Shown here in pieces: positions 8,595-22,548 of a stretch of DNA of 64,000 bases. The stretch's first letter is position 1, and each line of letters begins with the position of its first letter. Origin of the DNA: Bradyrhizobium sp. 170 (GTDB taxonomy: Bacteria; Pseudomonadota; Alphaproteobacteria; Rhizobiales; Xanthobacteraceae); assembly GCF_023101085.1 (NCBI RefSeq), contig NZ_CP064703.1:8060001-8124000 (forward strand), given 5' to 3'. Under the pieces are notes generated by a model. It ran no database searches. It saw only the letters and a program-made list of their open reading frames with translations, and was not told where the DNA came from. A program made the translations under genes and the position numbers.

Positions 8595-9596
8595 TCATCC
8601 GCCCGAACTCGACAACTTGCCGGGTAGCTTACGAAGTAACTTGTCAGATGGTTTCGTCGGCGGTCTCGAACCAGTCTTCGCAAGACCGCCCCCGGCGTGC
8701 GCGGCACTATACCTGCACAATTCGGACCAAAACAGATTTAGCGCCCGTTGACCATCATGCATTCGACCCCTGAATGCGACTAAAGACAAAGGCAACGCCC
8801 ATTTGTCGCCGCCGATCGGGGTCAGCCGCTTTCGGCCATAAGCGGCCACGGTGCCCTCGGTCAACCAGGCGATGCCCCGGCCGCCGAGCGCCATCCCGCA
8901 GAGCACATCGGACATATCGCTTTCGATCACCCGCACGCCGGAAATGGGGGCATTCTCCAGGATGAGATCGACCAGCCGGGCGAAATAGACGCCGGGCGAA
9001 TACATCAGAAGCGGCGCCGGATGCGACGCCCGCCCGGGCAGCGACGCGCCTCCCTTCGCCACCAGCGCTTCGCTGGCATAGGGCCGCAGGAATTCTGTGC
9101 CGAGCGTCACACGTTCGTAAAGATCCGGATCGAGATGGATCGGCTGCTGCGCGTGATGGTAGCAGATCATCAGGTCCACATTGTCTGACACCAGCGAGGT
9201 GACGAGATCGTGGATGTTGCCCACCACCACCGAACAGCTCAACCGCCGCTCCTGTGACCAGGCCTGCCACCAATGCGGCAGCCGTGCGGTGGCCATCGCG
9301 AACGGCAAGGCGATGCGGATATGTTCGTTGCGGTGAAGCGGCTTGCCGCCAAGCTCGCCGCGGCTGTCGAGCATCTGCCGCAGCAACTCGCCGGCATGTT
9401 CACGGAAACGCTCGCCTTGCGGCGTGAGCTGCGTCGGGTAGACACTGCGGTCGATCAAGTCGAAGCCGAGCCAGGCCTCCAGCGACTTGATCCGTCGGCT
9501 GAACGCCGCCTGAGACGTGTTTCGTTTCTCGGCGGCGCGGGTAAAATTGCCGGTCTCGGCCACCATCAGAAAATCCTGAAGCCAGCGAAGCTCCAT
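8595..9596 (-). CDS. LysR-family transcriptional regulator
   Basis: The 333-residue protein begins MELRWLQDFL and has the LysR winged helix-turn-helix in its first 60 residues, with the run FTRAAEKRNTSQAAFSRRIK. An effector-binding domain follows. It is about 30 residues longer than usual because of a Pro/Gly/Lys-rich C-terminal tail. Two adjacent ATG codons occur at 9599 and 9596. The GGGGAG site favours the second. It is divergent from dadA and directly upstream of gltI. A palindrome with LysR spacing lies in the dadA side of the gap, so it probably regulates dadA, the importer or both. Confidence 0.88.
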   Translation of the reverse strand: MELRWLQDFLMVAETGNFTRAAEKRNTSQAAFSRRIKSLEAWLGFDLIDRSVYPTQLTPQGERFREHAGELLRQMLDSRGELGGKPLHRNEHIRIALPFAMATARLPHWWQAWSQERRLSCSVVVGNIHDLVTSLVSDNVDLMICYHHAQQPIHLDPDLYERVTLGTEFLRPYASEALVAKGGASLPGRASHPAPLLMYSPGVYFARLVDLILENAPISGVRVIESDMSDVLCGMALGGRGIAWLTEGTVAAYGRKRLTPIGGDKWALPLSLVAFRGRMHDGQRALNLFWSELCRYSAAHAGGGLAKTGSRPPTKPSDKLLRKLPGKLSSSGG

Positions 9597-10019
9597 CATG
9601 CTCCCCGCTTTGATGCAGGCCGCGGCCGCCGCGCGGCCGCAAAGCCCGCCTCGGGGCAGCGCAAGGCCGCGGACGCCAGCCAGCGTTGGTTCTCGATACG
9701 CAATGTGAAGCCCCATGCCGGGAAACGTAGCGGATCGGCCGGCAGGCTGGCCAATGCAAGCTTTGCATCGCCACACCCCGCCGTTATCAGCGCGACAATC
9801 CCGATGATTCCTTGCCCAGTCATATAAGCCGGCTCGCGCTCACCCATGAGGTCCCGCCTTCATTAGCCTGCCACGCCGCGGGCAGGTTATGCAAATTTTG
9901 CATCATGCAGACTTGGCATCAATGGCGGCGTCCGGGGGCCTTAACCTGGTGCGCGACAACCCTTCGCCCGATCGGTTCTCGCGTTTCGATCGGACGATCA
10001 CCCAAGACGAGACCTAGAG
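9597..10019. other. Regulatory gap between LysR gene and dadA
   Basis: This 423-bp gap separates the divergent lysR-like and dadA genes. It holds the palindrome at 9889-9903. A leftward open frame of about 80 codons (to 9847) overlaps the LysR start by ATGA. It has no family I recognise and could be a leader peptide or chance, so it is not called as a gene. Confidence 0.4.
9889..9903. promoter_or_regulatory. Palindromic operator candidate upstream of dadA
   Basis: The sequence ATGCAAATTTTGCAT is a perfect palindrome of two 7-bp arms around one central T. It also fits the T-N11-A spacing of LysR sites (T at 9890, A at 9902). It lies 116 bp before the dadA start. The same 15-mer with one substitution occurs at 20887-20901 upstream of the D-aminoacylase. 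An Lrp/AsnC-type site would look similar. Confidence 0.7.
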
Positions 10020-11282
10020 ATGAAAATCTGTGTACTGGGCGCCGGCGTTATCGGACTGACGACCGCATGGTGCCTTGCCGAGGCCGGGCACGACGTCATC
10101 ATCGTCGACCGGCATGCTTCCACCGCGAAGGACGCCAGCGCCGCCAATGGCGGCCAGCTCTCTTACGCGTTCGTGGCGCCGCTGGCGTCTCCGGCAACCT
10201 TGCTGAAGCTGCCATCGCTGCTGCTGTCGCCGAATTCGCCGATGCGCATCCGCGCCGGCCTCGATCCTGCCCTGATTTCCTGGGGCACGCGATTCCTGCT
10301 CGCCTGCCGGCCGACAGCGGTGCGCGAGACCATTGCAGCGCAGCTCGCACTCGCCGCCCTGAGCCGGAGCGAGCTGGCGCGGATTTCCCACAGCTTGATG
10401 CTTTCGTTCGGGCTGCGAACCGCCGGCAAGCTTGTGGTGTTCCGCAGCCGGAGGCAATTCGACGCGGCGCGGCGCGCGATCACCGGAGAGACCGGCGAGG
10501 ACGGCCAGCAGGTGTTGACGCCGGCCGAATGCCTGGCGCTGGAGCCTGCGCTCAGGCTTGACGCCGCCAAACTCGCAGGCGGCATCTTCACGGCTTCCGA
10601 ACAGATCGGAGATTGCGCGGCGTTCTGTGCGGGGCTTACGTTCCGCCTGAGACGGCAACGCAATGTCGAATGGTTGCTCGGCACGGACGTGATCGGTCCG
10701 GTTCGCTCCGGCGGGCGGCTTGTCGCGGTCGAGATCAACAAGGGGCATGTGCAAGCAGAGCAGTTCGTCCTGTGTATGGGCGCGGCATCGAGCGCATTTG
10801 CGAGAGCGTGCGGATTCTATCTGCCGATCTATCCGCTCAAGGGTTACAGCATCACCCTGACACCGCCGCCCGATGCGCGCGTCATGAGGCACAGCGTGAC
10901 GGATATGGAACGCAAGCTGGTATTCGCCCCGCTCGCACGCGATGGACACACGGCGATCAGGATCGCCGGCATCGCCGATCTCGAAAGCAGCAACACGACG
11001 ATCGACACCAGACGCGTCGACATCCTGCGCCGCGCTTCGGCGGAGCTGCTCGGCATCGACGCCGCCGGCGACGTCAAGCCATGGTGCGGGCTTCGTCCCG
11101 CGACGCCGGACAGTCGGCCGATCATCGGCTGCTCGCCACTCGATGGCCTCTTCATCAACTCAGGCCACGGCATGCTCGGCTGGACGCTGGCCTGCGGCAG
11201 TGCGCGACTGACGGCCGATATGATCGATCGCAAGCCGGAGGCCAGCGAGGTGAGCGCGTTTACCCTGCGCCGCGCGGCATAA
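10020..11282 (+). CDS. dadA: D-amino-acid dehydrogenase, FAD-dependent
   Basis: The 420-residue flavoprotein starts with the dinucleotide-binding motif GAGVIG (residues 8-13) and has NGGQLSYA at about 45-52, the segment characteristic of DadA-type D-amino-acid dehydrogenases. The C-terminal GLRPATPDSRPIIG and GHGMLGWTLACGSARL runs are the second conserved FAD region. DadA oxidises D-amino acids to 2-oxo acids and ammonia, passing electrons to the membrane quinone pool. It is divergent from a LysR gene with a palindrome between them. A tctC gene follows after about 180 bp, probably a separate unit. The family is secure; the preferred D-amino acid is not known. Confidence 0.9.
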   Translation: MKICVLGAGVIGLTTAWCLAEAGHDVIIVDRHASTAKDASAANGGQLSYAFVAPLASPATLLKLPSLLLSPNSPMRIRAGLDPALISWGTRFLLACRPTAVRETIAAQLALAALSRSELARISHSLMLSFGLRTAGKLVVFRSRRQFDAARRAITGETGEDGQQVLTPAECLALEPALRLDAAKLAGGIFTASEQIGDCAAFCAGLTFRLRRQRNVEWLLGTDVIGPVRSGGRLVAVEINKGHVQAEQFVLCMGAASSAFARACGFYLPIYPLKGYSITLTPPPDARVMRHSVTDMERKLVFAPLARDGHTAIRIAGIADLESSNTTIDTRRVDILRRASAELLGIDAAGDVKPWCGLRPATPDSRPIIGCSPLDGLFINSGHGMLGWTLACGSARLTADMIDRKPEASEVSAFTLRRAA

Positions 11283-11462
11283 ATTCCGTACCTCGGGAGG
11301 CCGCGGCAGACTAATTGTCGCACGTCGCGTTTCCAGCCGGCCGCGGCGTCGCCCGTCGCAGTCAATATGCTTTTCTTCTCAGGCGATTTCGGGGAAGATC
11401 GACCCCAGAAAAAGAAGATAAGCGCGCCTCCCCGTCAATGAGGCCGCAGGGGAGTGTTCGAT

Positions 11463-12434
11463 ATGTCCAGAGCTCGCCGTTTGACGTTCGCCGTCGCCGC
11501 CGTTGGCATGCTGATTTCAGCAGCCGCCGGCGCGCAGGAATATCCCACCAAGCCGATCACGCTGATCGTCCCGTGGCCCGCGGGCGGCTCGACCGATATC
11601 TCGATGCGGGCGCTCGCCGAGAGCGCTTCCAAGGTGCTCGGACAGCCGATCGCCATCGACAACAAGGCCGGTGGCAGTGGCACCGTCGGCCCTGCCACCA
11701 TGGCAGCAGGCGCCAGGCCCGACGGCTACACCATCGCCCAGATCCCGATCACCGTGTTCCGCCTGCCCTTGATGCAGGAAGTCTCCTGGAATCCGGACAA
11801 GGACTTTACCTATATCATCCACCTCACCGGCTACACCTTCGGTGTCACCACCAGCGCGGAGTCGCCGTTCAAGACCTGGAAGGACGTTGTCGATTACGCC
11901 AAGCAGAATCCCGGCAAGGTGACCTATGCCACCCCGGGCGCCGGCACGTCGCTGCATATCGGCATGGAGCAGATCGCCGGCATGGCCGGCATCAAGCTGA
12001 CGCAGGTGCCTTTCAAGGGCGGCGCGGAAACCAATGCCGCGGTGCTGGGACAGCATACCATGCTGCAAGCGGACTCGACCGGCTGGCGGCCGCTGGTCGA
12101 CGCCGGCAAGCTGCGGCTATTGATGGTGTGGACCTCGGCGCGCTCGCCGAACTATCCCGATGTGCCGACGCTGAAGGAGCTCGGCTACCCCATGGTCTAT
12201 GACTCCCCGTTCGGCATCGCCGGCCCCAAGGGGATGGACCCGAAGATCGTCGCCAAGCTGCACGACGCCTTCAAGAAGGCGCTGGACGATCCGGCTGTGA
12301 TCGCCACGCTGGCCAAATTCGACATGGTGCCCAGTTACAAGAGCACCGAGGACTACAAGAAGTTCGTCGTCGAGGTCACCGAGTCCGAGCGCAAGGTGGT
12401 CGACAAGCTCGGGCTGGCGAAGAAGACGAACTGA
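11463..12434 (+). CDS. TctC-family substrate-binding protein of a complete TTT system
   Basis: This 323-residue periplasmic receptor has a signal peptide ending near AGAQ and the family opening YPTKPITLIVPWPAGGSTD. DNKAGGSGTVG is seen near residue 70. ATG at 11463 was chosen over a GTG nine bases earlier because GGGGAG lies eight bases before it. It is followed by tctB and tctA, so this receptor has its own membrane partners. It would capture a carboxylate in the periplasm and deliver it to TctAB for ion-driven uptake. Ligand unknown. Confidence 0.93.
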   Translation: MSRARRLTFAVAAVGMLISAAAGAQEYPTKPITLIVPWPAGGSTDISMRALAESASKVLGQPIAIDNKAGGSGTVGPATMAAGARPDGYTIAQIPITVFRLPLMQEVSWNPDKDFTYIIHLTGYTFGVTTSAESPFKTWKDVVDYAKQNPGKVTYATPGAGTSLHIGMEQIAGMAGIKLTQVPFKGGAETNAAVLGQHTMLQADSTGWRPLVDAGKLRLLMVWTSARSPNYPDVPTLKELGYPMVYDSPFGIAGPKGMDPKIVAKLHDAFKKALDDPAVIATLAKFDMVPSYKSTEDYKKFVVEVTESERKVVDKLGLAKKTN

Positions 12435-12442
12435 ATCGCCGT

Positions 12443-12592
12443 GTCCCGGACGCGACGCACCGCGCAAGCGCTGCTTCGCAGAACCGGGACCCATCTAGCC
12501 GCAGACACATGGGTCCCGGCTCTGCAGCGCATCACCATAGCGCGTCAAGACGCGCGTAAACGCGCTAATGGTGCAGCGCAGCGTCCGGGGAA
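12443..12592. repeat. Palindromic intergenic repeat between tctC and tctB
   Basis: The left part runs from GTGTCCCGGACGCG through GAACCGGGACCCAT. The right part mirrors it with ATGGGTCCCGGCTC and ends near GCGTCCGGGGAA. The whole can fold as a long imperfect hairpin with a smaller GCG-rich palindrome near 12540-12570. It sits inside the likely tctCBA transcript, where it may lower tctBA expression relative to the receptor. Confidence 0.7.
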
Positions 12593-12610
12593 TGGCTGAG
12601 AGAGTAATCG

Positions 12611-13096
12611 ATGAGTAACGACAGCGACGTCAAATTCCGCCTCAACAATTCCGAACTTTGGGGCGGGCTGATCGGGCTTGCGCTCGGCGGGTTCGTGATC
12701 TGGTCCGGGCTCAAGCTGAAGCTCGGCACCATCAACGACCCCGGCTCCGGGTTCGTGCTGTTCTATACCGGCATCCTGATGTGCCTGTTCGCCGCCTCGA
12801 TCATCATCGCCGCATTGACCGAGGGCGGGCCGACCTTTGGCTCGCGCTGGGTGAACACGCGCTGGACCAAGCCGCTGCTGGTGATCGTCTGCCTCATCGC
12901 TTTCTCCTTCGCCCTCAATCCGCTCGGCTTTCTGCTGTCCTCAATTCCGCTGATGTTGCTGCTGTTGCGCGTGGTCGACCCGGTCCGCTGGCCGCTGGCC
13001 GTTCCGGTTGCCGTGCTGGTTCCGCTCGGCATGTGGTGGGTCCTCAAACGCCTGCTCCTGATTCAACTGCCTTCGGGCATCTTCGAAATCGGCTGA
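12611..13096 (+). CDS. TctB-family small membrane subunit of TTT transporter
   Basis: The 161-residue protein has four predicted membrane segments: IGLALGGFVIWSG near 22, then FYTGILMCLFAASIIIA, LLVIVCLIAFSFAL, and a C-terminal pair around PLGMWWVL. This is the layout of TctB, the small inner-membrane subunit. It is followed after 8 bp by tctA. The family is poorly conserved in sequence, so the call depends partly on position. Confidence 0.9.
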   Translation: MSNDSDVKFRLNNSELWGGLIGLALGGFVIWSGLKLKLGTINDPGSGFVLFYTGILMCLFAASIIIAALTEGGPTFGSRWVNTRWTKPLLVIVCLIAFSFALNPLGFLLSSIPLMLLLLRVVDPVRWPLAVPVAVLVPLGMWWVLKRLLLIQLPSGIFEIG

Positions 13097-13104
13097 CCCG
13101 CACC

Positions 13105-14613
13105 ATGGACACACTCATCAATGTCGCGCATGGCTTCGGCGTCGCCCTTCAACCCGTCAACCTGATCTACTGCTTCATCGGCGTCTTCATCGGTACGCTG
13201 GTCGGGGTGCTGCCGGGCATCGGCCCGATCTCGGCGATGTCGCTGCTACTGCCGATCACGCTGTCGGGAACGCCGGAGTCCGGCATCATCATGATGGCCG
13301 GCATCTATTACGGCTCGATGTATGGCGGCTCCACCACCTCGATCCTGGTCAACATTCCCGGCGAGGCTGCTTCCGTCGTCACCTGTATCGATGGCCACCA
13401 GATGGCCAAGCAGGGCCGCGCGGGACCTGCGCTCGGCATCTCCGCATTCGGCTCGTTCTTCGCCGGCACCTTCGCGCTGATCGCGCTGATGCTGGTGGCG
13501 CCCAAGCTCGCCAGCGTCGCGATCGCTTTCGGTCCGGCCGAATATTTCAGCCTGATGGTGCTCGGCCTTGTGGTCCTCACCTTCCTGACGCAGGGCTCAA
13601 TGGCGAAGGCGTTGCTGATGGCCTGCATCGGCATCGTGCTCGGCGTGATCGGGCTCGACAGCATTACCGCGCAACCGCGCCTGACCTTCGGCCGCCTGGA
13701 ACTGATCGACGGCATCGGCCTCGTCCCCGTGGTGATGGGCCTGTTCGGCGTCGCCGAAGTCCTGTTCAACACCGAGCAGGTCATCAAGCGCGACGTCATC
13801 AACACGAAGATCACGCACCTGTTGCCGAGCCGGGAGGACTGGAAAGCCAGCGCCGGCCCGATGTCGCGCGGAACGATCCTTGGATTCTTCCTCGGCATCC
13901 TGCCCGGTGGCGGCGCAGTGATCTCGTCGTTCGCGTCCTATGCGCTGGAGAAGCGGCTGTCGAAAACGCCGGAACGCTTTGGCCATGGCGCGATCGAGGG
14001 TGTGGCGGGACCCGAAGCCGCCAACAACGCCGCGGCCGGCGGCGCCTTCATTCCGCTGATGACATTAGGCATTCCGCCAAACGTGGTGATGGCGCTGTTG
14101 CTCGGCGCTTTCGTCATTCACGGCCTGCAGCCCGGCCCGCTGATGATCACGCAGAACCCCGGCCTGTTCTGGGGCATCGTCGCCAGCATGTATATCGGCA
14201 ATCTGATGCTGCTGGTGCTGAACCTGCCGATGATCGGCATGTGGGTGCAGCTCCTCAAGCTGCCCTACAACATCCTGTTCCCGCTGATCATCCTGTTCAC
14301 CATCATCGGCGTCTATTGCTCCAGCAACAACGTGTTCGATGTCTATGTGATGATCGCGTTCGGCATTATCGGCTATTTCATGCGCAAGCTCGGCTACGAG
14401 CCGGCGCCGCTGGTGCTGGCCTTCGTGCTGGGGCCGATGCTGGAGAACAACCTGCGCAAGTCGCTGATCCTGTCGCAGGGCGACCTGATGACCTTCATCG
14501 AACGGCCGATCTCGGCCGTCTGCCTGGCGTTCGCAGTCGTGCTGTTGATCGGCCCGTTGCTGCCGGCGCTACGCAAGAAGCGCGAGATGGTCGCGCTGGA
14601 CGAAGGGGTGTGA
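13105..14613 (+). CDS. TctA-family large membrane subunit of TTT transporter
   Basis: The 502-residue polytopic protein carries the TctA glycine-rich motif [13 protein letters not shown] near residue 35, and a second copy, [17 protein letters not shown], near residue 260. These mirror-image half-repeats typify the family's transport core. The start [11 protein letters not shown] at 13105 was chosen because the open frame upstream overlaps tctB in another frame. TctA forms the carboxylate-conducting unit with TctB. The next gene on the right is convergent, with only 6 bp between stop codons. Confidence 0.95.
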
Positions 14614-14619
14614 CCGCAG

Positions 14620-16005
14620 CTAGAACGCCCGCTTCTTCTCGCCGAGATCCCAGAACAGCCCCGCCATGATGGCGAGCGCCTCTTCTGTCACCGGCAGAAG
14701 AATGTGTTCGTCCGGCGCGTGCTGCGAGCAGCCGGGATAGGAATGCGGCACCCAGATCGTCGGTAACCCCAACCCTTCGGCGAACACGTCGTTCGGCAGC
14801 GAACCGCCGAAATTCGGCAGGATCGCCGGCGCCTTGCCGGTGGTCTGCAGGATCGAGTTCGCCGTCCAGTTCACCCAGGGACTGTCGACATCGGTACGCG
14901 AAGCCGCGAAGCGCTGCGCGCCGCTGACCTCCACCATCGAAAAGCCGTTGGCATGCAAATGCGTGCGCACGGCGTCGACGACCTCTTCATATCTGGTGCC
15001 GACGACGAAGCGAAGCTGCAGCACGGCATTGGCGCGGCCGGGAATCGCGTTGGCCGGCTTCTCGATATTGCCTGACGACATCGCCAGGACTTCCAGCGTA
15101 TTCCAGGCAAACAGCCGCTCGGCCGGCGACAATCCCTCCTCGCCCCATTCGGGCGCCAGCGCCGGCTCGTCGGCGGTCGGCTCGATCTTCACATCCGCGA
15201 GCGCCGCGCGCACCGCGTTCGAGATCCGCGGCGGCTTGAGCGCCTCGAGCTTCATCCGCCCCTTGCCGTCGACGAGGCTCGCGATGGCGTTGCAAAGGAT
15301 CGTCGCGGGATTGGCGAGGACGCCGCCCCAATTGCCCGAATGGTTTCCGCCCTCGCGCAGGTTGACATCGAGATGGATGCGGTTGCCGCCGCGGCAGCCG
15401 AGGAAGATGGTCGGCCGGTCGGCTGAAAGCCGTGGTCCGTCGGAAGCCAGGAACAGATCGGCCTTCAGCTCCTCGCGATGGGCTTCGCACACCTGCCGCA
15501 GATCGGGCGAACCGATCTCCTCGCCGGTCTCGATGATGAATTTGACGTTGAAGCCGAGCTTGCCGCCGCGGGTCTCGCGCACGGCGCGCAATGCCGCGAG
15601 ATTGATGCTGTGCTGCCCCTTGTTGTCGGCGGTGCCGCGGCCATAGACGCGCTCGCCTTTGGTCGTGGCTTTCCAGGGATCGAGATTGTCGCGCCATTCG
15701 CCTTCCATGCCGTCGACGACATCGCCATGGCCATAGGTGAGCACGGTCGGCAACGAGGCATCCTCGCGATAATCGGCCAGCAGATACGGACCCTTGCCGC
15801 TCGGCGATTCGATCAGGCGGGTGGAGAAATCGAGCGCGGCGAAGGCGGGCTGGAGGTCATCGACGAGATAGGCGCGCAACGCCTCGCCGCTGCCGGGGTT
15901 CTGGCTTTCGGTCCGATAGCCGACCCTGCGGCCGAGCTCGGCGAGAAACGCGCCGGAATTCAGATGCTCACGTACCCGCGCAATCGCGTCGGCTCTATCA
16001 GCCAT
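14620..16005 (-). CDS. M20 family metallopeptidase
   Basis: This 461-residue enzyme shows the M20 metal site. THis93 and Asp95 lie in TYGHGDVVDG, followed by the Asp of GRGTADNKGQ and the catalytic Glu pair in IIETGEEIGS near residue 170. A C-terminal His ligand lies in the HAPDEHILL region. The larger size and GTADNKGQ motif resemble the dipeptidase/carnosinase branch. It hydrolyses peptides or N-acylated amino acids in the cytoplasm. Start 16005 was preferred to the upstream in-frame codon because a GGGAAAG site precedes it. It is divergent from the monooxygenase gene. Confidence 0.9.
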   Translation of the reverse strand: MADRADAIARVREHLNSGAFLAELGRRVGYRTESQNPGSGEALRAYLVDDLQPAFAALDFSTRLIESPSGKGPYLLADYREDASLPTVLTYGHGDVVDGMEGEWRDNLDPWKATTKGERVYGRGTADNKGQHSINLAALRAVRETRGGKLGFNVKFIIETGEEIGSPDLRQVCEAHREELKADLFLASDGPRLSADRPTIFLGCRGGNRIHLDVNLREGGNHSGNWGGVLANPATILCNAIASLVDGKGRMKLEALKPPRISNAVRAALADVKIEPTADEPALAPEWGEEGLSPAERLFAWNTLEVLAMSSGNIEKPANAIPGRANAVLQLRFVVGTRYEEVVDAVRTHLHANGFSMVEVSGAQRFAASRTDVDSPWVNWTANSILQTTGKAPAILPNFGGSLPNDVFAEGLGLPTIWVPHSYPGCSQHAPDEHILLPVTEEALAIMAGLFWDLGEKKRAF

Positions 16006-16189
16006 ATTTCTTTCCCTTGTTCGCAAACGTGTGGAGCGCAACCTATCGGGATAAGCCGCCCGCTGGAAGTGGTACGGCTACCGAATGAGGCCTTGCTAAA
16101 AACAGCGAGGATGCAACAATTTCGGGCAACAGCCCGGCGTTTAACCGGGCGAATGCGCAGGGAACCCTGCACGCACCGAGGTTCGCGTC

Positions 16190-17578
16190 ATGACAAAACA
16201 AATCCGGCTCAATGCCTTCGCCATGAACTGCGTGGCGCATCAATCGCCGGGGCTCTGGACCCATCCGCGCGACCGCACGCTGGGCTACAACCGCCTGCCC
16301 TACTGGCTCGACCTGGCGAAGACGCTGGAGCGCGGCCGGTTCGACGGGCTGTTTCTCGCCGATGTGCTCGGCGTCTACGACGTGTTCGGCGATAGCCCCG
16401 ACGCCGCGCTGCGCAATGCCGCGCAGACGCCGGCGAACGAGCCCCTGATGCTGATCCCGGCGATGGCGGCGGTGACGCAAAATCTCGGTTTTGGCGTCAC
16501 CAGCAATCTCTCGTTCGAGCCGCCCTACCCGTTTGCCCGACGGATGTCGACGCTCGATCACCTGACCGAAGGCCGGATAGGCTGGAACGTGGTGACCGGC
16601 TATCTCGACTCGGCCGCGCGCGGCGCCGGCAAGGACAAACAGACCGCGCATGACGACCGCTACGAGATCGCGGATGAATATATGGAGCTGGTCTACAAGC
16701 TCTGGGAAGGAAGCTGGGAGGACGACGCCGTTCTGCGCGACCGCGCGCGCGGCATTTTCGCCGACCCTTCCAAGGTGCATCGCATAGAGCACGAGGGAAG
16801 CAACTACCGGCTCAACGCCATTCATCTCAGCGAGCCATCGCCGCAACGAACGCCGGTGCTGTATCAGGCCGGCACCTCGCCGCGCGGACGGCAGTTCGCC
16901 GCAGAGCATGCCGAATGCGTGTTCATGTCGGGCCCGTCGGCCAGGATCATCGGCCCACGCGTGGCGGCGATCCGCGCGCTGGCGAAGGAGATCGGGCGCA
17001 ATCCGGCCGAAATCCTGATGTTCTCCATGATGACGATCATTCTCGGCCGCACCGAGGCCGAGGCGAAAGCAAAGTACGCCGACTATCGCCGCCACATCGC
17101 GCCCGAGGGCGCGCTGGCCTTGATGTCGGGCTGGATGGGTATCGATTTCTCGGGCTACAACCTCGACCAGCAGGTGCGCCACGTCCAGAACGATGCCGGG
17201 CGCACCGCGCTCGACAACGTCACCCGCGCCGATCCTGATAGGGTGTGGACCGTGCGCGAGGTCGTCGAGCACGTCGGCATCGGCGGCGCCGGGCCGGTCG
17301 TGGTCGGCACGCCGGAGAAGGTCGCCGACGATATCGAGGCCTGGTTCGAGCAGACCGATGTCGACGGCCTCAACGTTGCGTTTGCTACCTCGCCCGGCGA
17401 TTTCGAGGATATCGCAGACATGCTGGTGCCGGAGTTGACGAAGCGCGGGCGCTACAAGAGCGCGTATGCGGAAGGAACGCTGCGCGAAAAACTGTTCGGT
17501 GCCGGGCGCGCGCGGTTAACGGAGCAGCATCCGGCGACAAGGTATCGCGTGAAGCCACGCGCTGCGGCGGCGGAGTAA
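16190..17578 (+). CDS. FMN-dependent LLM-class monooxygenase, NtaA/SnaA/DmoA family
   Basis: The 462-residue protein has family marks of two-component flavin monooxygenases. ADVLGVYDVFG lies near residue 60, followed by TSNLSFEPPYPFARRMSTLD and GRIGWNVVTGY. These enzymes use reduced FMN made by a separate reductase to cleave substrates such as aminopolycarboxylates or organosulfur compounds. No flavin reductase gene lies next to it. It is divergent from the M20 peptidase across 184 bp, so the two may share regulation. The substrate is unknown. Confidence 0.92.
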   Translation: MTKQIRLNAFAMNCVAHQSPGLWTHPRDRTLGYNRLPYWLDLAKTLERGRFDGLFLADVLGVYDVFGDSPDAALRNAAQTPANEPLMLIPAMAAVTQNLGFGVTSNLSFEPPYPFARRMSTLDHLTEGRIGWNVVTGYLDSAARGAGKDKQTAHDDRYEIADEYMELVYKLWEGSWEDDAVLRDRARGIFADPSKVHRIEHEGSNYRLNAIHLSEPSPQRTPVLYQAGTSPRGRQFAAEHAECVFMSGPSARIIGPRVAAIRALAKEIGRNPAEILMFSMMTIILGRTEAEAKAKYADYRRHIAPEGALALMSGWMGIDFSGYNLDQQVRHVQNDAGRTALDNVTRADPDRVWTVREVVEHVGIGGAGPVVVGTPEKVADDIEAWFEQTDVDGLNVAFATSPGDFEDIADMLVPELTKRGRYKSAYAEGTLREKLFGAGRARLTEQHPATRYRVKPRAAAAE

Positions 17579-17581
17579 CTT

Positions 17582-17674
17582 GTAGGGTGGGCAAAGGCGC
17601 ACTTCGCGCCGTGCCCACCACCTATCCACATCGCTAATCTGAATGGTGGGCACGCTTCGCTTTGCCCACCCTAC
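17582..17674. repeat. Palindromic intergenic repeat, 'gtagggtgggc' family
   Basis: The element starts GTAGGGTGGGCAAAG and ends with the inverse CTTTGCCCACCCTAC. A second member lies at 25819-25906. It fills the gap between the convergent monooxygenase and ThDP-enzyme genes and would form a strong hairpin in both transcripts. Confidence 0.85.
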
Positions 17675-17690
17675 GATTTCGCAATGACGA

Positions 17691-19355
17691 TCAATTCACC
17701 GAATTGCTCACGACCACCTCGATCAGCTTCGCGCCGGGGCGGCTGAAGGCGGATGACAATACGGACTTCAACTGGGCAGGATCAGTGACCCGTGTCGCCT
17801 CAAGCCCCAGCGACTTCGCCACTCCCGTAAAGTCCACCGGCGGATCAATGAAATCCATACCGACATAATGATCGTCGTCGTGGAAGGCGAGCAGCCGCTG
17901 CTTGATGATGCGATAGCCGCCATTGTTGACGATCACGAATGTCAGCGGCAGCTTGTGGTTCGCCGCCGTCCACAGCGACTGGATCGAGTACATCGAGCTG
18001 CCGTCGCCGGAGTAGCACACGACCGGCCGATCCGGGTTGGCGAGGCTGACGCCGACGGACGCCGGCAATCCCCAGCCGATGCCGCCCGAAGCGAGCGCGT
18101 GATAGCCGTAGCGGTCGCGATGCGGGCGTAGCGCGATGATCTGCCGCGATGAGGTCAGTCCCTCGTCGACCAGGATCGCATTATCAGGCATCGCCTCGAC
18201 CACCTGCAATGCCAGCCAGTCCGGATCAATCGGCGAGGTTTTGCCCGCTTTCGATATCTGTTCGACCAGCGGCCTGCGCCGGGCCGTCCAGTTCTTCGAC
18301 GCCAGCGCATCCAGCCCCCGTCTCGCCCGCACTTCGAGCGCACCGCCGCCCGCGGCCTTCAACGCCGGCACCAGCGCGCGCAGCGTCTCCCTCACATCGG
18401 CCTTGAGCGCGATGTCGACGCCGTAATTCCTGGCGAGGTCGTGATCGACCAGGCCGATCTGAACGATCGACAGCCCATCCGGCAGCGGGTCCGTCTCGCT
18501 GTAGACCGACATCCGCAGCGGATCGCCGCCGAGCGCGATGATGAGGTCGTAAGGCGCCAGCGTCTCGCGGGCAAGCTTCTGGATGCGTGCCAGCGCGCCC
18601 ATGAAGCACGGGCTTTCGGACAGGAAATGCGCGCCGTAGGGCGTTGAAGACTGATACGCCGGACAGCCCAGCGTTTCCGCAAGTTGCGCCGCCTCCTGCA
18701 AGGCATCGCTCTTGACGATCTCGTCGCCGACGATGATCACGGGCCGCTCGGCCTTGAGGATGCGTGCAGTCAGCGCCTGCAGCGATTCGTCCGCCGGTTT
18801 GACGCGGGTATCGATCCGGGTCGAGCGGCCGAGTTCGATGCCGGCCTCGGCATTGAGGATGTCGCCCGGCAGCGAGATGAAGACCGGCCCGGTCGGCGGC
18901 GTGGTCGCGATCTTGGCGGCGCGGCGCACGATGCGCGGCAGGTCTTCCAGCCGCGTCACTTCGACCGCCCATTTCACCAGCGGCTGCGCCATCTGCACCA
19001 GCGGACCGTAAAGCACCGGCTCGGTCAGGCCATGGCCCTGCTCCTGCTGGCCCGCCGTCAGGATCAGGGGCGTGCCGGTGAAGCTTGCGTTGTAGAGCGA
19101 ACCCATCGCGTTGCCGAGGCCTGGCGCGACATGGACGTTGCAGGCGACGAGCTTGCCCGAGGCGCGGCTGAAACCGTCGGCCATGGCGACGACGAGGCTT
19201 TCCTGCATCGCCATCACATAGGTGAGGTCGGGATGGTCCTTCAGCGCATGCATGATCGGCAGCTCGGTGGTGCCGGGATTGCCGAACAGATGCGTGACGC
19301 CCTCGTCTTTCAGCAGTGCAAGGAATGCGGAGCGGCCGGTGATTTTGTTCTTCAT
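17691..19355 (-). CDS. Thiamine-diphosphate-dependent enzyme (acetolactate synthase/benzoylformate decarboxylase-like)
   Basis: The 554-residue protein has the three ThDP-enzyme domains. Glu52 in VMAMQESLVVAMADG is the cofactor-activating Glu. The ThDP/Mg motif begins GDGSSMYSIQSLW near residue 455 and ends at VNNGGY. The early FGNPGTTELP run is typical of benzoylformate decarboxylase-like proteins. Such enzymes decarboxylate or ligate 2-oxo acids in the cytoplasm. The start at 19355 has an excellent CAGGAGGAG site. The gene stands alone, with no small regulatory subunit as in true acetolactate synthase. The 2-oxo acid products of nearby D-amino-acid enzymes could be substrates, but that is inference. 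Confidence 0.85.
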   Translation of the reverse strand: MKNKITGRSAFLALLKDEGVTHLFGNPGTTELPIMHALKDHPDLTYVMAMQESLVVAMADGFSRASGKLVACNVHVAPGLGNAMGSLYNASFTGTPLILTAGQQEQGHGLTEPVLYGPLVQMAQPLVKWAVEVTRLEDLPRIVRRAAKIATTPPTGPVFISLPGDILNAEAGIELGRSTRIDTRVKPADESLQALTARILKAERPVIIVGDEIVKSDALQEAAQLAETLGCPAYQSSTPYGAHFLSESPCFMGALARIQKLARETLAPYDLIIALGGDPLRMSVYSETDPLPDGLSIVQIGLVDHDLARNYGVDIALKADVRETLRALVPALKAAGGGALEVRARRGLDALASKNWTARRRPLVEQISKAGKTSPIDPDWLALQVVEAMPDNAILVDEGLTSSRQIIALRPHRDRYGYHALASGGIGWGLPASVGVSLANPDRPVVCYSGDGSSMYSIQSLWTAANHKLPLTFVIVNNGGYRIIKQRLLAFHDDDHYVGMDFIDPPVDFTGVAKSLGLEATRVTDPAQLKSVLSSAFSRPGAKLIEVVVSNSVN

Positions 19356-19625
19356 GTCTCCTCCTGCCCGCCGGTCCGTTGGCCTGCGGGATGGAGGCAG
19401 ATGACCAAACTTCAACAACGCGCGCAATGGAGGGAGGTCATGGCTGCCCTGCGCGGCCACGCCCGCGTCCCGGACGCGGCGCAGATACTCTTCGGCGGTA
19501 CACCGCAGGCCCAGATACAAAATCGCGAAAACAACCCCATGCAAAGTAGAATGAGCCTGGGCGCGCAGCCCTCAGGCCGCTTGCGTCCGGGGCACGAGAT
19601 GGTCCGTCGTCACGGCCCAACCTAA
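19356..19625. other. Intergenic stretch without a recognisable gene
   Basis: About 270 bp of GC-rich DNA upstream of the ThDP gene contain its promoter and ribosome site. A leftward frame extends the ThDP frame upstream, but it has no recognisable domain. I call no gene here. Confidence 0.4.
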
Positions 19626-20016
19626 TCTCATCCTGCCCTAGGGCTTTCTTTAGAAGACTTTCAAAACCTCGCTGACCTGGAGCGGTCGACCGACTGGCTA
19701 AAGGAAGTAGATCAAGCAGAGTATAAGGGCCCACTAAACGAGTTCAGCAGCTACAATTGCTGGAACAAGAAAGGCCGCACTAGCCTCGCTTGTTCCAAAT
19801 TTCGAAGTCGGAGAATCGAAGCCGTCCTCCTCCCACGTTGTGATCTGCAACGAAGACCTTCTAGCCGCGCAAATCGGAACTATCGACGAGGCAATTCAAG
19901 TGCATCCACCGGGATGGCCGGCTGAATCGCTGGAGCCTTGGATGATGAGAACCGAGGTTCAAGTCGATCCGGTCTTAAGGGCAATGGCTAATCCAAACGA
20001 TCTAGATGAGGAGTGA
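19626..20016 (+). pseudogene. Remnant or frameshifted gene in an AT-richer island
   Basis: Two successive open frames look protein-like but are out of register. The first, from 19626, reads LSLEDFQNLADLERSTDWL and continues to about 19740. The second, after a TAA at 19735-19737, reads through LASLVPNFEVGESK and PPGWPAESLEPWMMRTEV to a TGA at 20014-20016. Neither has a good upstream start, except a GTG near 19830. The simplest reading is a gene truncated at its 5' end and frameshifted near 19738-19780. A shorter intact gene from the GTG is an alternative. Base composition is AT-richer than the flanks. The downstream gene starts 3 bp after the TGA. Confidence 0.4.
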
Positions 20017-20019
20017 CCG

Positions 20020-20745
20020 TTGCCAATTGCCTTTGACGTTCGGCTCATGCAGAGCGACTTAACTGCTTTTGCCAAGGCCAGTTCGAAATTTCTTGCGAAC
20101 ACCAATCGTTTAACTGAGTTGCAAGCGCAATTGGCAACGGCCGTGACGAATGCAAGACAGGGAGATGGAAAGGTACAATGGAACACGAACCACGGCGGGA
20201 CCGATCAACCGGTTAAAACGCGTCCTAGCACCAGTTATCGTAGCCACGGCACGTCAGCGAAACCTCTTGTTGCCGAAATCTCTTTCAATCTCGTAGGCGT
20301 GCTATCGGAAGACGATGATAACCGACTAATTGTTTCGTCCGGGGGTACATGCATCAAATTGATGTGGGCGGAGGACAATCCCAATTGCACCGAATGCCAT
20401 TTTGACATTCACCCCAATAAAATTGGACATCCAACATTGCATACTCAGTTCATAGGTGAGGTCAAAGAACTCCCTCGACTAATTTCTTTCTTTGCTCATC
20501 CGCTGGATATTGTTGAGTTCATACTGATGGAAGTCTTTCAGGATCGCTGGCGGCGCGTGCGAGCAGGTGTTACCTGCAAGACGCAGTTGCATAACTACCC
20601 AGTGAACCAACGTACTCGCTTGATTGCTGTTCTGCAGACGTACACCGGCTGGCTTCAAGCCGGCGACGCTCCACTAGTAAGCTTGCAGATGACCCCCGAT
20701 CCCTTTTTTGATCTCTATCCTCATGAGACGCGACCACAATTTTAG
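20020..20745 (+). CDS. Hypothetical protein, orphan in an AT-richer island
   Basis: The 241-residue protein belongs to no family I can name. Its first 50 residues (LTAFAKASSKFLANTNRL and onward) look helical and may form a short coiled coil. A central part has a His/Asp pattern, CHFDIHPN then HPTLHTQF, followed by PRLISFF and HPLDIVEFILMEVF. No signal peptide or membrane helix is seen. The start is TTG at 20020, with GAGGAG eight bases before it. It sits 3 bp after the stop of the preceding open frame, so translational coupling is likely. Lower GC and unusual codon use suggest horizontal transfer. Confidence 0.7.
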   Translation: MPIAFDVRLMQSDLTAFAKASSKFLANTNRLTELQAQLATAVTNARQGDGKVQWNTNHGGTDQPVKTRPSTSYRSHGTSAKPLVAEISFNLVGVLSEDDDNRLIVSSGGTCIKLMWAEDNPNCTECHFDIHPNKIGHPTLHTQFIGEVKELPRLISFFAHPLDIVEFILMEVFQDRWRRVRAGVTCKTQLHNYPVNQRTRLIAVLQTYTGWLQAGDAPLVSLQMTPDPFFDLYPHETRPQF

Positions 20746-20883
20746 TTGCGACTATCACCTTGAATCTTATTGTCGCTTCACCAAAATGGTACACACAGCA
20801 CACGCAACACTGACGACTAATTCCGCTGCGGTTCCCTCGGGCGCTCGCGCTCTTTTTTCCAATAGGCCGCGCCGGCGCCGCGT

Positions 20884-20904
20884 CCAATGCTAATTTTGCA
20901 TTGG
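20884..20904. promoter_or_regulatory. Palindromic operator candidate upstream of the D-aminoacylase gene
   Basis: CCAATGC (20884-20890) and GCATTGG (20898-20904) are perfect 7-bp inverted arms around TAATTTT. The inner 15-mer ATGCTAATTTTGCAT differs by one base from the dadA-side palindrome at 9889-9903. It ends 60 bp before the start codon at 20965, a common operator position. Confidence 0.7.
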
Positions 20905-20964
20905 ATGATGCAGATCACGAGAGCTACGCTGACAAGCGCCCGCCCTCGCGCCGGAGATTCCAGA

Positions 20965-22548
20965 ATGAACCGCAAATCGGTCCTGCTAGCCGCCATGTCA
21001 CTTGGACTCATGCTCAATCACGGAGCATCCGCGGCGGATGCGGCCGACCTCGTCATCAGCGGCGGGACCATCTACACCGGTGGCGACGAGGCGCCATTCG
21101 TGGGCGATATTGCGGTCACCGCAGACAAGATCGTCTATGTCGGCCCCCATGCCGGCGCACCGACCGCAAAAGCGAGCATCGACGCAAAGGGCATGATTGT
21201 CGCGCCCGGATTCATCGACGTTCACACCCATCCGGAGAGCTTTATCCGCTCGCCCGATGCGGCCAAACGCCTGAACGCGCCGTGGCTGATGCAGGGTGTT
21301 TCAACCACATTCATTGGCGTCGATGGCAGGGGGATACCCGATGTCGCAGCCGATCACGCACAGTTCGAAGCGCAGAAGATCGGCACCAACATTGTCAGCT
21401 ATGTCGGTTTTGGCGCCGTCCGCGAGGCGGTACTGGGCCAGGACGCCCGCGCGCCAACGCCTTCCGAACTGGAGCGCATGAAGGCGCTCGTCGCCAAGGG
21501 AATGTGCGAGGGCGCCATCGGCCTTTCCGCCGGTCTGTTCTACGCGCCGCAGAGTTTCGCCAAAACGGACGAGGTGGTGGCACTGGCCAGGGAGGCCGCC
21601 CGGCGCGGCGGCGTCTACGACACCCACCAGCGCGACGAAAGCTCTTATTCCATCGGCCTCATGAACTCGGTCAAGGAGGTGCTGCAAATCGGCCGCGAAG
21701 CCGAAATCCCCGTGCATTTCGCGCACCTCAAGGCGCTTGGCATCGATCTGCAAGGCCAGACCCCGGAAGTGATCCGCCTGATCGTCGAGGCGCGAGCGAC
21801 CGGTCAGAGGGTGACCGCCGACCAGTATCCGTGGCTGGCGTCGAGCACCAGCCTCGACGCAGCCCTGGTGCCGCGCTGGGCGGTCGATGGCGGCTATGCG
21901 GCGATGATCCGGCGCTTCGACGACCCGGCAACGATGGCCAAGATTCGCGGTGAGATGATCGAGAATTTGCGCCGCCGTGGCGGCGCGGAATCGATCCTGC
22001 TGACCAGCGTCGAGCGGCCCTGGACCGGCAAGCGGCTTTCGGAGATGGCGGACGCATGGAAGATCGAACCGATCGACGCCGCCATCCGAATTCTCCGAGC
22101 CAATGTCAGAGATTCGATCGCCTCGTTCAACATGATCGACAGCGACGTCGACCTCGTCATGAAGCAGCCATGGATCGTCACCGGTTCGGACGGCACCGAT
22201 GGCCATCCCCGCCAATACGCCACCTTTCCGCGCAAATACGCGGTCTATGTGCAAGAGCGGCAAGTCATCGACCTCAGGACTTTCATCCGCCAATCGACCG
22301 GCCTGTCGGCCGACATCTTCAAGCTCGATCGACGCGGTTACCTGCGGACCGGCTATTTCGCTGACGTCGTGGTGTTCGACCCTGCCGGCTACGCCCCCAA
22401 GGCCGACTATGTGCGCCCCCGCGAATTGACCGTCGGCGTGCAAACCCTGCTGGTCAACGGCGCGCCGGCCGTTCAGGACGGCAAACTGACCGCCGTCGCC
22501 GCCGGCCGCGCGCTCAAGCACACGCCGACGCCGGGGACTTGTCCCTAA
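20965..22548 (+). CDS. N-acyl-D-amino-acid deacylase family amidohydrolase (D-aminoacylase)
   Basis: The 527-residue protein has a signal peptide ending near ASAADA, then an amidohydrolase fold. The HxH metal pair is His87 and His89 in FIDVHTHPES. Further candidate ligands are His in YDTHQRDESS and HFAHLKA, and the Asp in TGSDGTDGHPR. These match D-aminoacylases, which free D-amino acids from N-acyl-D-amino acids. Export suggests action in the periplasm. Start 20965 was chosen over the longer frame because it gives a proper signal peptide and has GGAG upstream. Released D-amino acids could feed DadA and the transaminase. Dihydroorotase-like or other amidohydrolases are less likely. Confidence 0.87.
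   Translation: MNRKSVLLAAMSLGLMLNHGASAADAADLVISGGTIYTGGDEAPFVGDIAVTADKIVYVGPHAGAPTAKASIDAKGMIVAPGFIDVHTHPESFIRSPDAAKRLNAPWLMQGVSTTFIGVDGRGIPDVAADHAQFEAQKIGTNIVSYVGFGAVREAVLGQDARAPTPSELERMKALVAKGMCEGAIGLSAGLFYAPQSFAKTDEVVALAREAARRGGVYDTHQRDESSYSIGLMNSVKEVLQIGREAEIPVHFAHLKALGIDLQGQTPEVIRLIVEARATGQRVTADQYPWLASSTSLDAALVPRWAVDGGYAAMIRRFDDPATMAKIRGEMIENLRRRGGAESILLTSVERPWTGKRLSEMADAWKIEPIDAAIRILRANVRDSIASFNMIDSDVDLVMKQPWIVTGSDGTDGHPRQYATFPRKYAVYVQERQVIDLRTFIRQSTGLSADIFKLDRRGYLRTGYFADVVVFDPAGYAPKADYVRPRELTVGVQTLLVNGAPAVQDGKLTAVAAGRALKHTPTPGTCP

Follow-up and report, generated by a model that had tools for sequence, protein, structure and literature searches.

Which regulator, if any, joins two D-amino-acid genes that lie 11 kb apart in Bradyrhizobium sp. 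170? In the 64,000 nucleotides analysed here (contig NZ_CP064703.1, positions 8,060,001 to 8,124,000, hereafter the window), nearly identical palindromes precede a dadA-like D-amino-acid dehydrogenase gene and a D-aminoacylase gene, and the gene of a LysR-type regulator is divergent from the former. Our comparisons make it probable that this LysR binds four operators of the form ATGC-N7-GCAT and controls dadA, the D-aminoacylase gene and itself.

Palindromic sites at the two loci

The original prediction had noted two 15-mers, one in front of each D-amino-acid gene, and direct reading of the window bears this out: ATGCAAATTTTGCAT is found at 9889-9903 and ATGCTAATTTTGCAT at 20887-20901, with a difference of a single base. 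The first lies in the gap between lysR and dadA, as had been claimed, since LysR starts at about 9599 and dadA at 10020. Placed upstream of a target and a divergent regulator, the palindrome also shows the predicted T-N11-A pattern. Across the whole genome of 9,195,219 bases, matches with at most one mismatch occur at these two places only (the reversed control gave none), and at this threshold the search found no crowd of copies outside promoters. The observation is therefore confirmed, and it is larger than first described. Indeed, two more sites of the same class, absent from the original prediction, flank the site at 9889, namely ATGCAAGCTTTGCAT at 9754-9768 and ATGCAGACTTGGCAT at 9905-9919. 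From the lysR side towards dadA, the three sites of the gap are called O1, O2 and O3, and the site before the D-aminoacylase gene is called P. With up to three mismatches, the window holds eight strand-matches at four places, against a mean of 1.7 after shuffling (none of 100 shuffles reached eight). Similarly, the two intergenic stretches (639 bases) contain four copies of ATGC-N7-GCAT against a mean of 0.04, a density that none of 20,000 first-order resamples attained.

O2 and O3, both conserved, are 16 bp apart from centre to centre. At its full length P reads CCAATGC-TAATTTT-GCATTGG (20884-20904), upstream of the likely D-aminoacylase start at 20965. The ATG within the palindrome itself, at 20887, opens the longest reading frame, and an automatic start call at that position could bury the site inside the gene.

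Conservation in Bradyrhizobium

Among 146 genomes of the genus, 17 (this one included) contain an intact LysR ortholog, with identities of 84-95% when the query genome is set aside. The named orthologs at 85% identity or more number 13, all from Bradyrhizobium. Residues 1-69, which include the DNA-binding domain, are invariant in all nine aligned orthologs, position 25 excepted, and the one TAG met in five of the 17 is the normal protein end, located after residue 323-331. O1 and O2 are kept in all 17 intact LysR-dadA loci and the arms of O3 are exact in 15 of them. The intergenic alignment covers 16 of these loci (L024 was left out, its dadA start being unmatched from residue 1) and shows invariance at 14 of 15 columns in O1, 14 of 15 in O2 and 7 of 15 in O3. 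This leaves a footprint: 35 of the 45 columns within the sites are invariant, compared with 62 of the 372 columns elsewhere (p = 1.5e-16). All three sites are present at the named loci L120, L127 and L131, and none at the broken locus L133.

In three genomes (G056, G051 and G049), the LysR is present as broken remains or fragments. The copy in G056 carries five stops and dadA has shrunk to residues 347-420 (L115), while in G051 the LysR is found in pieces only and dadA was not found (L116); ATGC-N7-GCAT is absent from the 9-kb stretch of G056 and from that of G051. The neighbours are well kept in both (TctC 92% identical, most of TctA 94-95%), and lysR and dadA decayed together between them.

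Two further features of the gap concern O2. A conserved block, TTAGCCTGCCACGCC, is located just upstream of it at window positions 9863-9877, with TTAGCCTGCCACG in 13 of the 17 loci, and may form a leftward promoter together with O2. A loop between O1 and O2 set by phasing was considered and rejected, as their spacing varies from 122 to 137 bp over the 17 loci and keeps no strict helical phase.

The D-aminoacylase has a narrower distribution. Six of the 146 genomes, including this one, possess an ortholog (84-89% identity, own aside); the other matches listed reach at most 45%, apart from a 53-residue remnant in G030 (75%), and in G023 the match is split in two. Every one of these six genomes belongs to the 17 with an intact LysR (hypergeometric probability 1.0e-6, uncorrected for relatedness). 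The palindrome is located upstream of each of the six orthologs (arms exact in five, a single base altered in L110), even though the upstream DNA at these sites is of about four kinds (that of the window, that of L110, that of L108 and L111, and that of L109 and L112). By hand count, a TAnnnT follows the palindrome at exactly 23 nt in all six. In G141, the D-aminoacylase gene comes directly after dadA. G030, which has no LysR ortholog (best match E 6e-24), keeps the palindrome before a D-aminoacylase remnant that covers residues 452-526 only (L117, 3542-3780).

The palindrome follows a LysR clade

Outside the genus, three partly overlapping samples of 297, 385 and 398 genomes yielded five LysR homologs at 44-56% identity (G226, G342, G209, G695 and G598), and an AT-centred ATGC-N7-GCAT is present at all five. 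It occupies the lysR-dgcN gap in G226, precedes lysR in G209 and stands at the head of the lysR-containing gene row in G342, G695 and G598; the row of G342 has another copy further in, and G695 has two copies. In a midpoint-rooted tree of 69 LysR rows, with long branches flagged, six of the 17 genus orthologs and the five outside homologs are placed on one side of a branch with support of 100/100. A sister clade of 17 loci at 37-42% identity, whose rows are interrelated and hence not independent, carries the same arm on the other side of the gene: in the 500 bases 3' of lysR, ATGC is the best of 256 arms, with 10 loci against three for the next best, and it occurs upstream at one locus. The idea that homologs below 43% identity are devoid of the motif, which came from the upstream check alone, was refuted by these 3' copies.

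As a converse control, we examined 30 dgcN loci, DgcN exceeding its cut-off in 76 of 318 genomes of the class; the control covered LysR genes within about 1.5 kb of dgcN and sites in the 400 bases before dgcN. An AT-centred site is present in one of the 30 promoter regions, that of L237 (G598), the sole locus with this LysR in the examined DNA, and in none of the 29 without a linked LysR, among which L219 has a GC-centred match only and the region of L235 is just 59 bases long. In the earlier sample of the class, LysR matches at E 1e-50 or better were found, besides our own, only in G226, G582, G598, G644 and G695; in G582 and G644 the LysR match and dgcN are on different contigs. Therefore, the AT-centred site goes with the LysR and not with the D-amino-acid gene. 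This comparison across genomes ties the conserved sites to the LysR clade, through different families and gene contexts, and on present evidence it supports the LysR encoded at 8595-9599, already the favoured candidate in the original prediction, as the probable binder of the sites.

More distantly, in L041 and L046 a LysR at 30% identity is found beside an aconitase-family gene (leuC-like in L041), with TTATGC-N7-GCATAA just upstream of lysR, hinting that the operator may be shared more widely in this LysR branch.

Target genes and the possible ligand

The features of the two loci are collected in Table 1. The regulator passes both of its Pfam cut-offs (HTH_1, 69.6 bits against 26.6; LysR_substrate, 60.5 bits against 28). 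The dadA product is nearest to D-amino-acid dehydrogenase, with 380.9 bits for PRK00711, just below the cut-off of 383. The D-aminoacylase, whose start resembles a signal peptide by eye, does not reach the cut-off of 340 of the PRK09061 amidohydrolase model (179 bits); its nearest solved structures are the D-aminoacylase 1rjp (E 8e-60) and then the N-acyl-D-glutamate deacylase 3gip (E 3e-44).

Table 1. Genes, proposed operators and proposed promoter elements at the two loci (window coordinates).
Feature	Position	Strand	Remarks
LysR-type regulator gene, proposed binder	8595..9599	-	Divergent from dadA; Pfam HTH_1 and LysR_substrate
-10-like TACGTT, proposed lysR promoter	9724..9729	-	24 nt beyond O1; seen in the sequence
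O1, ATGCAAGCTTTGCAT	9754..9768	no strand	Proposed operator, lysR side
O2, ATGCAAATTTTGCAT	9889..9903	no strand	Proposed strong dadA operator
O3, ATGCAGACTTGGCAT	9905..9919	no strand	Proposed weaker dadA operator beside O2
-10-like TAACCT, proposed dadA promoter	9942..9947	+	22 nt after O3; seen in the sequence
dadA-like D-amino-acid dehydrogenase gene	10020..11282	+	Pfam DAO; NCBIfam PRK00711
P, CCAATGCTAATTTTGCATTGG	20884..20904	no strand	Proposed D-aminoacylase operator; core 20887-20901
-10-like TACGCT, proposed D-aminoacylase promoter	20925..20930	+	23 nt after P; TAnnnT at this distance in 6/6 orthologs
D-aminoacylase (N-acyl-D-amino-acid deacylase-like) gene	20965..22548	+	Pfam Amidohydro_3

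The notion of a D-amino-acid regulon, put forward in the original prediction, fits both target genes, but the neighbours in the wider clade point more narrowly to glutamate or D-glutamate. DgcN is encoded beside the clade members with 526 and 532 bits, and in G598 with 541 bits (cut-off 480), and a DgcA neighbour reaches 472 bits (cut-off 400). The gene row of G598 also includes an MR_MLE protein and a glutamate/aspartate-type binding protein (308 bits, below the cut-off of 375). At six loci of the sister clade, the site is followed by a gene for a Glu/Leu/Phe/Val dehydrogenase (L174, L177 and L184; in L174 and L177 nearest to glutamate dehydrogenase models, below cut-off) or for a family-3 binding protein (L176, L182 and L183; in L182 and L183 nearest to the glutamate/aspartate model, below cut-off). 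One study presents dgcN as the key gene in a pathway that racemizes acidic D-amino acids irreversibly (PMC12363236), and another describes DgcN-DgcA as turning D-Glu into L-Glu (PMC10845958). In Bradyrhizobium, DgcN was found in none of the 146 genomes, our own included.

Since relatives of the LysR sit in DgcN-DgcA operons and beside genes for glutamate dehydrogenase and glutamate/aspartate-type binding proteins, the chances appear about even that the inducer is D-glutamate or another glutamate-family compound. If these neighbours do indicate a glutamate-type ligand, the deacylase and the dehydrogenase may form a route from N-acyl-D-glutamate through D-glutamate to 2-oxoglutarate. A broader scenario can be offered only tentatively, namely that the members of a phylum-wide LysR subfamily respond to glutamate or D-glutamate and share ATGC-N7-GCAT as their operator, and that the branch in Bradyrhizobium, in which DgcN was not found, was rewired to a second D-glutamate route made up of an N-acyl-D-glutamate deacylase and a D-glutamate dehydrogenase, the unlinked loci being recruited by the gain of an operator before each gene.

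The LysR could also bind the same sites in response to a neutral D-amino acid or to a broad range of D-amino acids, an inducer that the D-amino-acid regulon of the original prediction would imply. The order of the solved structures, with 1rjp ahead of 3gip, would suit such an inducer, and the dehydrogenase resembles a general DadA. Nevertheless, the association of the clade with DgcN, DgcA and a glutamate/aspartate-type binding protein, and of its sister clade with glutamate dehydrogenase, argues for the glutamate family and makes a neutral or broad inducer rather unlikely.

Proposed promoter architecture and direction of regulation

In the arrangement that we propose, the four palindromes would be operators of the LysR, which would recognise ATGC-N7-GCAT. 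O1, at the regulator's own promoter, would provide autoregulation; O2 and O3 would form a strong and a weak site before dadA, comparable to the recognition site and the activation site of a LysR regulator; and P, 11 kb away, would bring the D-aminoacylase gene under the same control. Given the -10-like elements 22-24 nt beyond them, O1, O3 and P would be located just upstream of the -35 region, a placement for which the likeliest outcome is that the inducer allows the LysR to activate dadA and the D-aminoacylase gene, together with autorepression of lysR. Binding, promoters, direction of regulation and inducer are what we infer here. Outside Bradyrhizobium, a shared -10 distance was not evident by eye.

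The same layout could be read in the opposite sense, with the LysR repressing both dadA and the D-aminoacylase gene until the inducer relieves it: P and O3 would lie directly against the proposed -35, a position from which a bound protein could likewise block transcription. With O2 and O3 paired upstream of this element, the arrangement resembles the one usual for activators, and repression at the two targets seems improbable in our view.

Motif copies elsewhere and other possible binders

Several observations weigh against control of both targets by this LysR, or against a glutamate-type ligand. Eleven of the 17 LysR genomes have no D-aminoacylase ortholog, and the shared regulon is therefore seen in a minority. 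Curated cut-offs are missed narrowly by the dadA product and widely by the D-aminoacylase, whose closest solved relative is a D-aminoacylase and not an N-acyl-D-glutamate deacylase. Within the clade, the gene row of G342 is headed by an M20 peptidase and a polysaccharide deacetylase follows lysR in G209, neither of which suggests glutamate. Seven of the 17 sister loci have no exact palindrome 3' of lysR, and among 41 distant loci ATGC occurs upstream in five (third among arms) and downstream in one. The bounds of the dgcN control, given above, count on the same side. Finally, a copy of the ATGCWARNTTTGCAT class is present in 16 of the 129 genus genomes without an intact LysR.

Fourteen of these 16 loci were examined (G062 and G103 were left out), about half of them being identified by Pfam and the rest by their like layout. 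Eight lie between two kup-type genes, three upstream of a periplasmic-binding-protein gene and three inside genes, and none of the 14 loci has the LysR, dadA or the D-aminoacylase gene. Therefore, this sequence can also appear, or have a function, at other places, and sequence alone is no proof of the regulator; these copies are taken as background. Two placements recur among them. ATGCWAATTTTGCAT or its complement is found between tandem kup-type potassium-transporter genes at 1501-1515 of L049, L051, L052, L054, L058, L060, L062 and L065 (identified by Pfam in L054, L058 and L060, and by like layout in the others). ATGCAAATTTTGCAT is found about 140-155 bp upstream of a Peripla_BP_6 gene at 1501-1515 of L050, L063 and L066 (identified by Pfam in L050 and L063), again in genomes without this LysR.

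In our own genome, ATGCNRNNNYNGCAT occurs at 53 places; among the 50 listed, eight beyond the window sites have at most three G/C in the centre. A wider regulon drawn from these eight, all of which were examined, was rejected: six are inside open frames of at least 248 residues, and L210, in a short and doubtful frame, nevertheless reads by eye as coding in the other direction. One lead remains: at L206 2458-2472 (G000:C1:1887757-1887771), ATGCTGACTTGGCAT differs by one base from O3 and looks intergenic, with a nifQ-type gene on one side, an HMGL-like (homocitrate-synthase-type) gene on the other, and a possible ATG about 60-70 bp further on. It is possibly a further target, or a chance copy. 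The looser ATGC-N7-GCAT occurs at 156 places, 50 of them listed, so that weak extra targets are possible. Separately, ATGCTGTCTCCGCAT occurs at no fewer than eight places between G000:C1:5740172 and 7960773, perhaps as part of a repeated element.

The original prediction had named an Lrp/AsnC regulator encoded elsewhere as the alternative binder of the palindromes. Lrp-type control of dad genes is known from other organisms, and GCAAATTTTGC, at the centre of O2, agrees with the AT-rich core of the Escherichia coli Lrp consensus. Across the sites, it is the arms ATGC/GCAT that are near-constant, while the centre varies (AAATTTT, AAGCTTT, AGACTTG); moreover, the site stays with the LysR clade where the gene contexts are unrelated, and an AT-centred copy is missing from all 29 dgcN promoters without a linked LysR. 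Because the site follows the LysR, we consider an Lrp/AsnC binder highly improbable, a judgement reached with no search for Lrp genes. That the resemblance is due to chance or to a mobile repeat has a negligible probability: the palindrome class does recur at unrelated places in 16 other genomes of the genus, but this genome has no further copy of the pair within one mismatch, the sites are footprinted across species, and their density was reached in none of the resamples.

Comparison with known systems

If LysR control of these genes is accepted, a LysR regulator so far without a name gains a predicted operator, predicted targets and a ligand class, and the operator permits sequence-based prediction of related LysR regulons in other families. 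The genus is one in which 146 genomes gave no sign of DgcN, the known route for D-glutamate. D-glutamate derives from peptidoglycan, and its use by soil and nodule bacteria therefore bears on nitrogen turnover. Among the literature matches listed, subscription papers being mostly out of reach, there was no paper on this regulator or operator.

Three known systems invite comparison with the regulon proposed here. DgcR is the regulator of the DgcN-DgcA D-glutamate operon. LysR relatives at 48-56% identity are found in or beside dgcN/dgcA rows with the same palindrome (G226, G695 and G598), whereas the targets in Bradyrhizobium would be dadA and the D-aminoacylase gene, in a genus without a detected DgcN. 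DadR-type regulators of the Lrp family control dadA; a D-amino-acid dehydrogenase gene would be under control in both cases, but the regulator here is LysR-type. HypT (YjiE), the hypochlorite regulator, gives the best named NCBIfam model for this LysR and for the three relatives scanned. However, the LysR scores 100.7 bits against the NF007488 cut-off of 301, and is therefore not HypT; its neighbours, moreover, are amino-acid genes.

A further comparison is with the LysR family itself, for which one source describes a T-N11-A motif with an AT-rich spacer (PMC5002191). Measured against that description, the likenesses include the HTH_1 and LysR_substrate domains, the divergent target, the 15-bp T-N11-A palindrome, the AT-rich centre in most sites, and the proposed pairing of a strong site with an adjacent weaker one. 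In contrast to the consensus CTATA-n9-TATAG given there (PMC5002191), the arms here are ATGC/GCAT, and a second target with its own site lies 11 kb away. In kind, this is an ordinary LysR regulon, well supported and testable.

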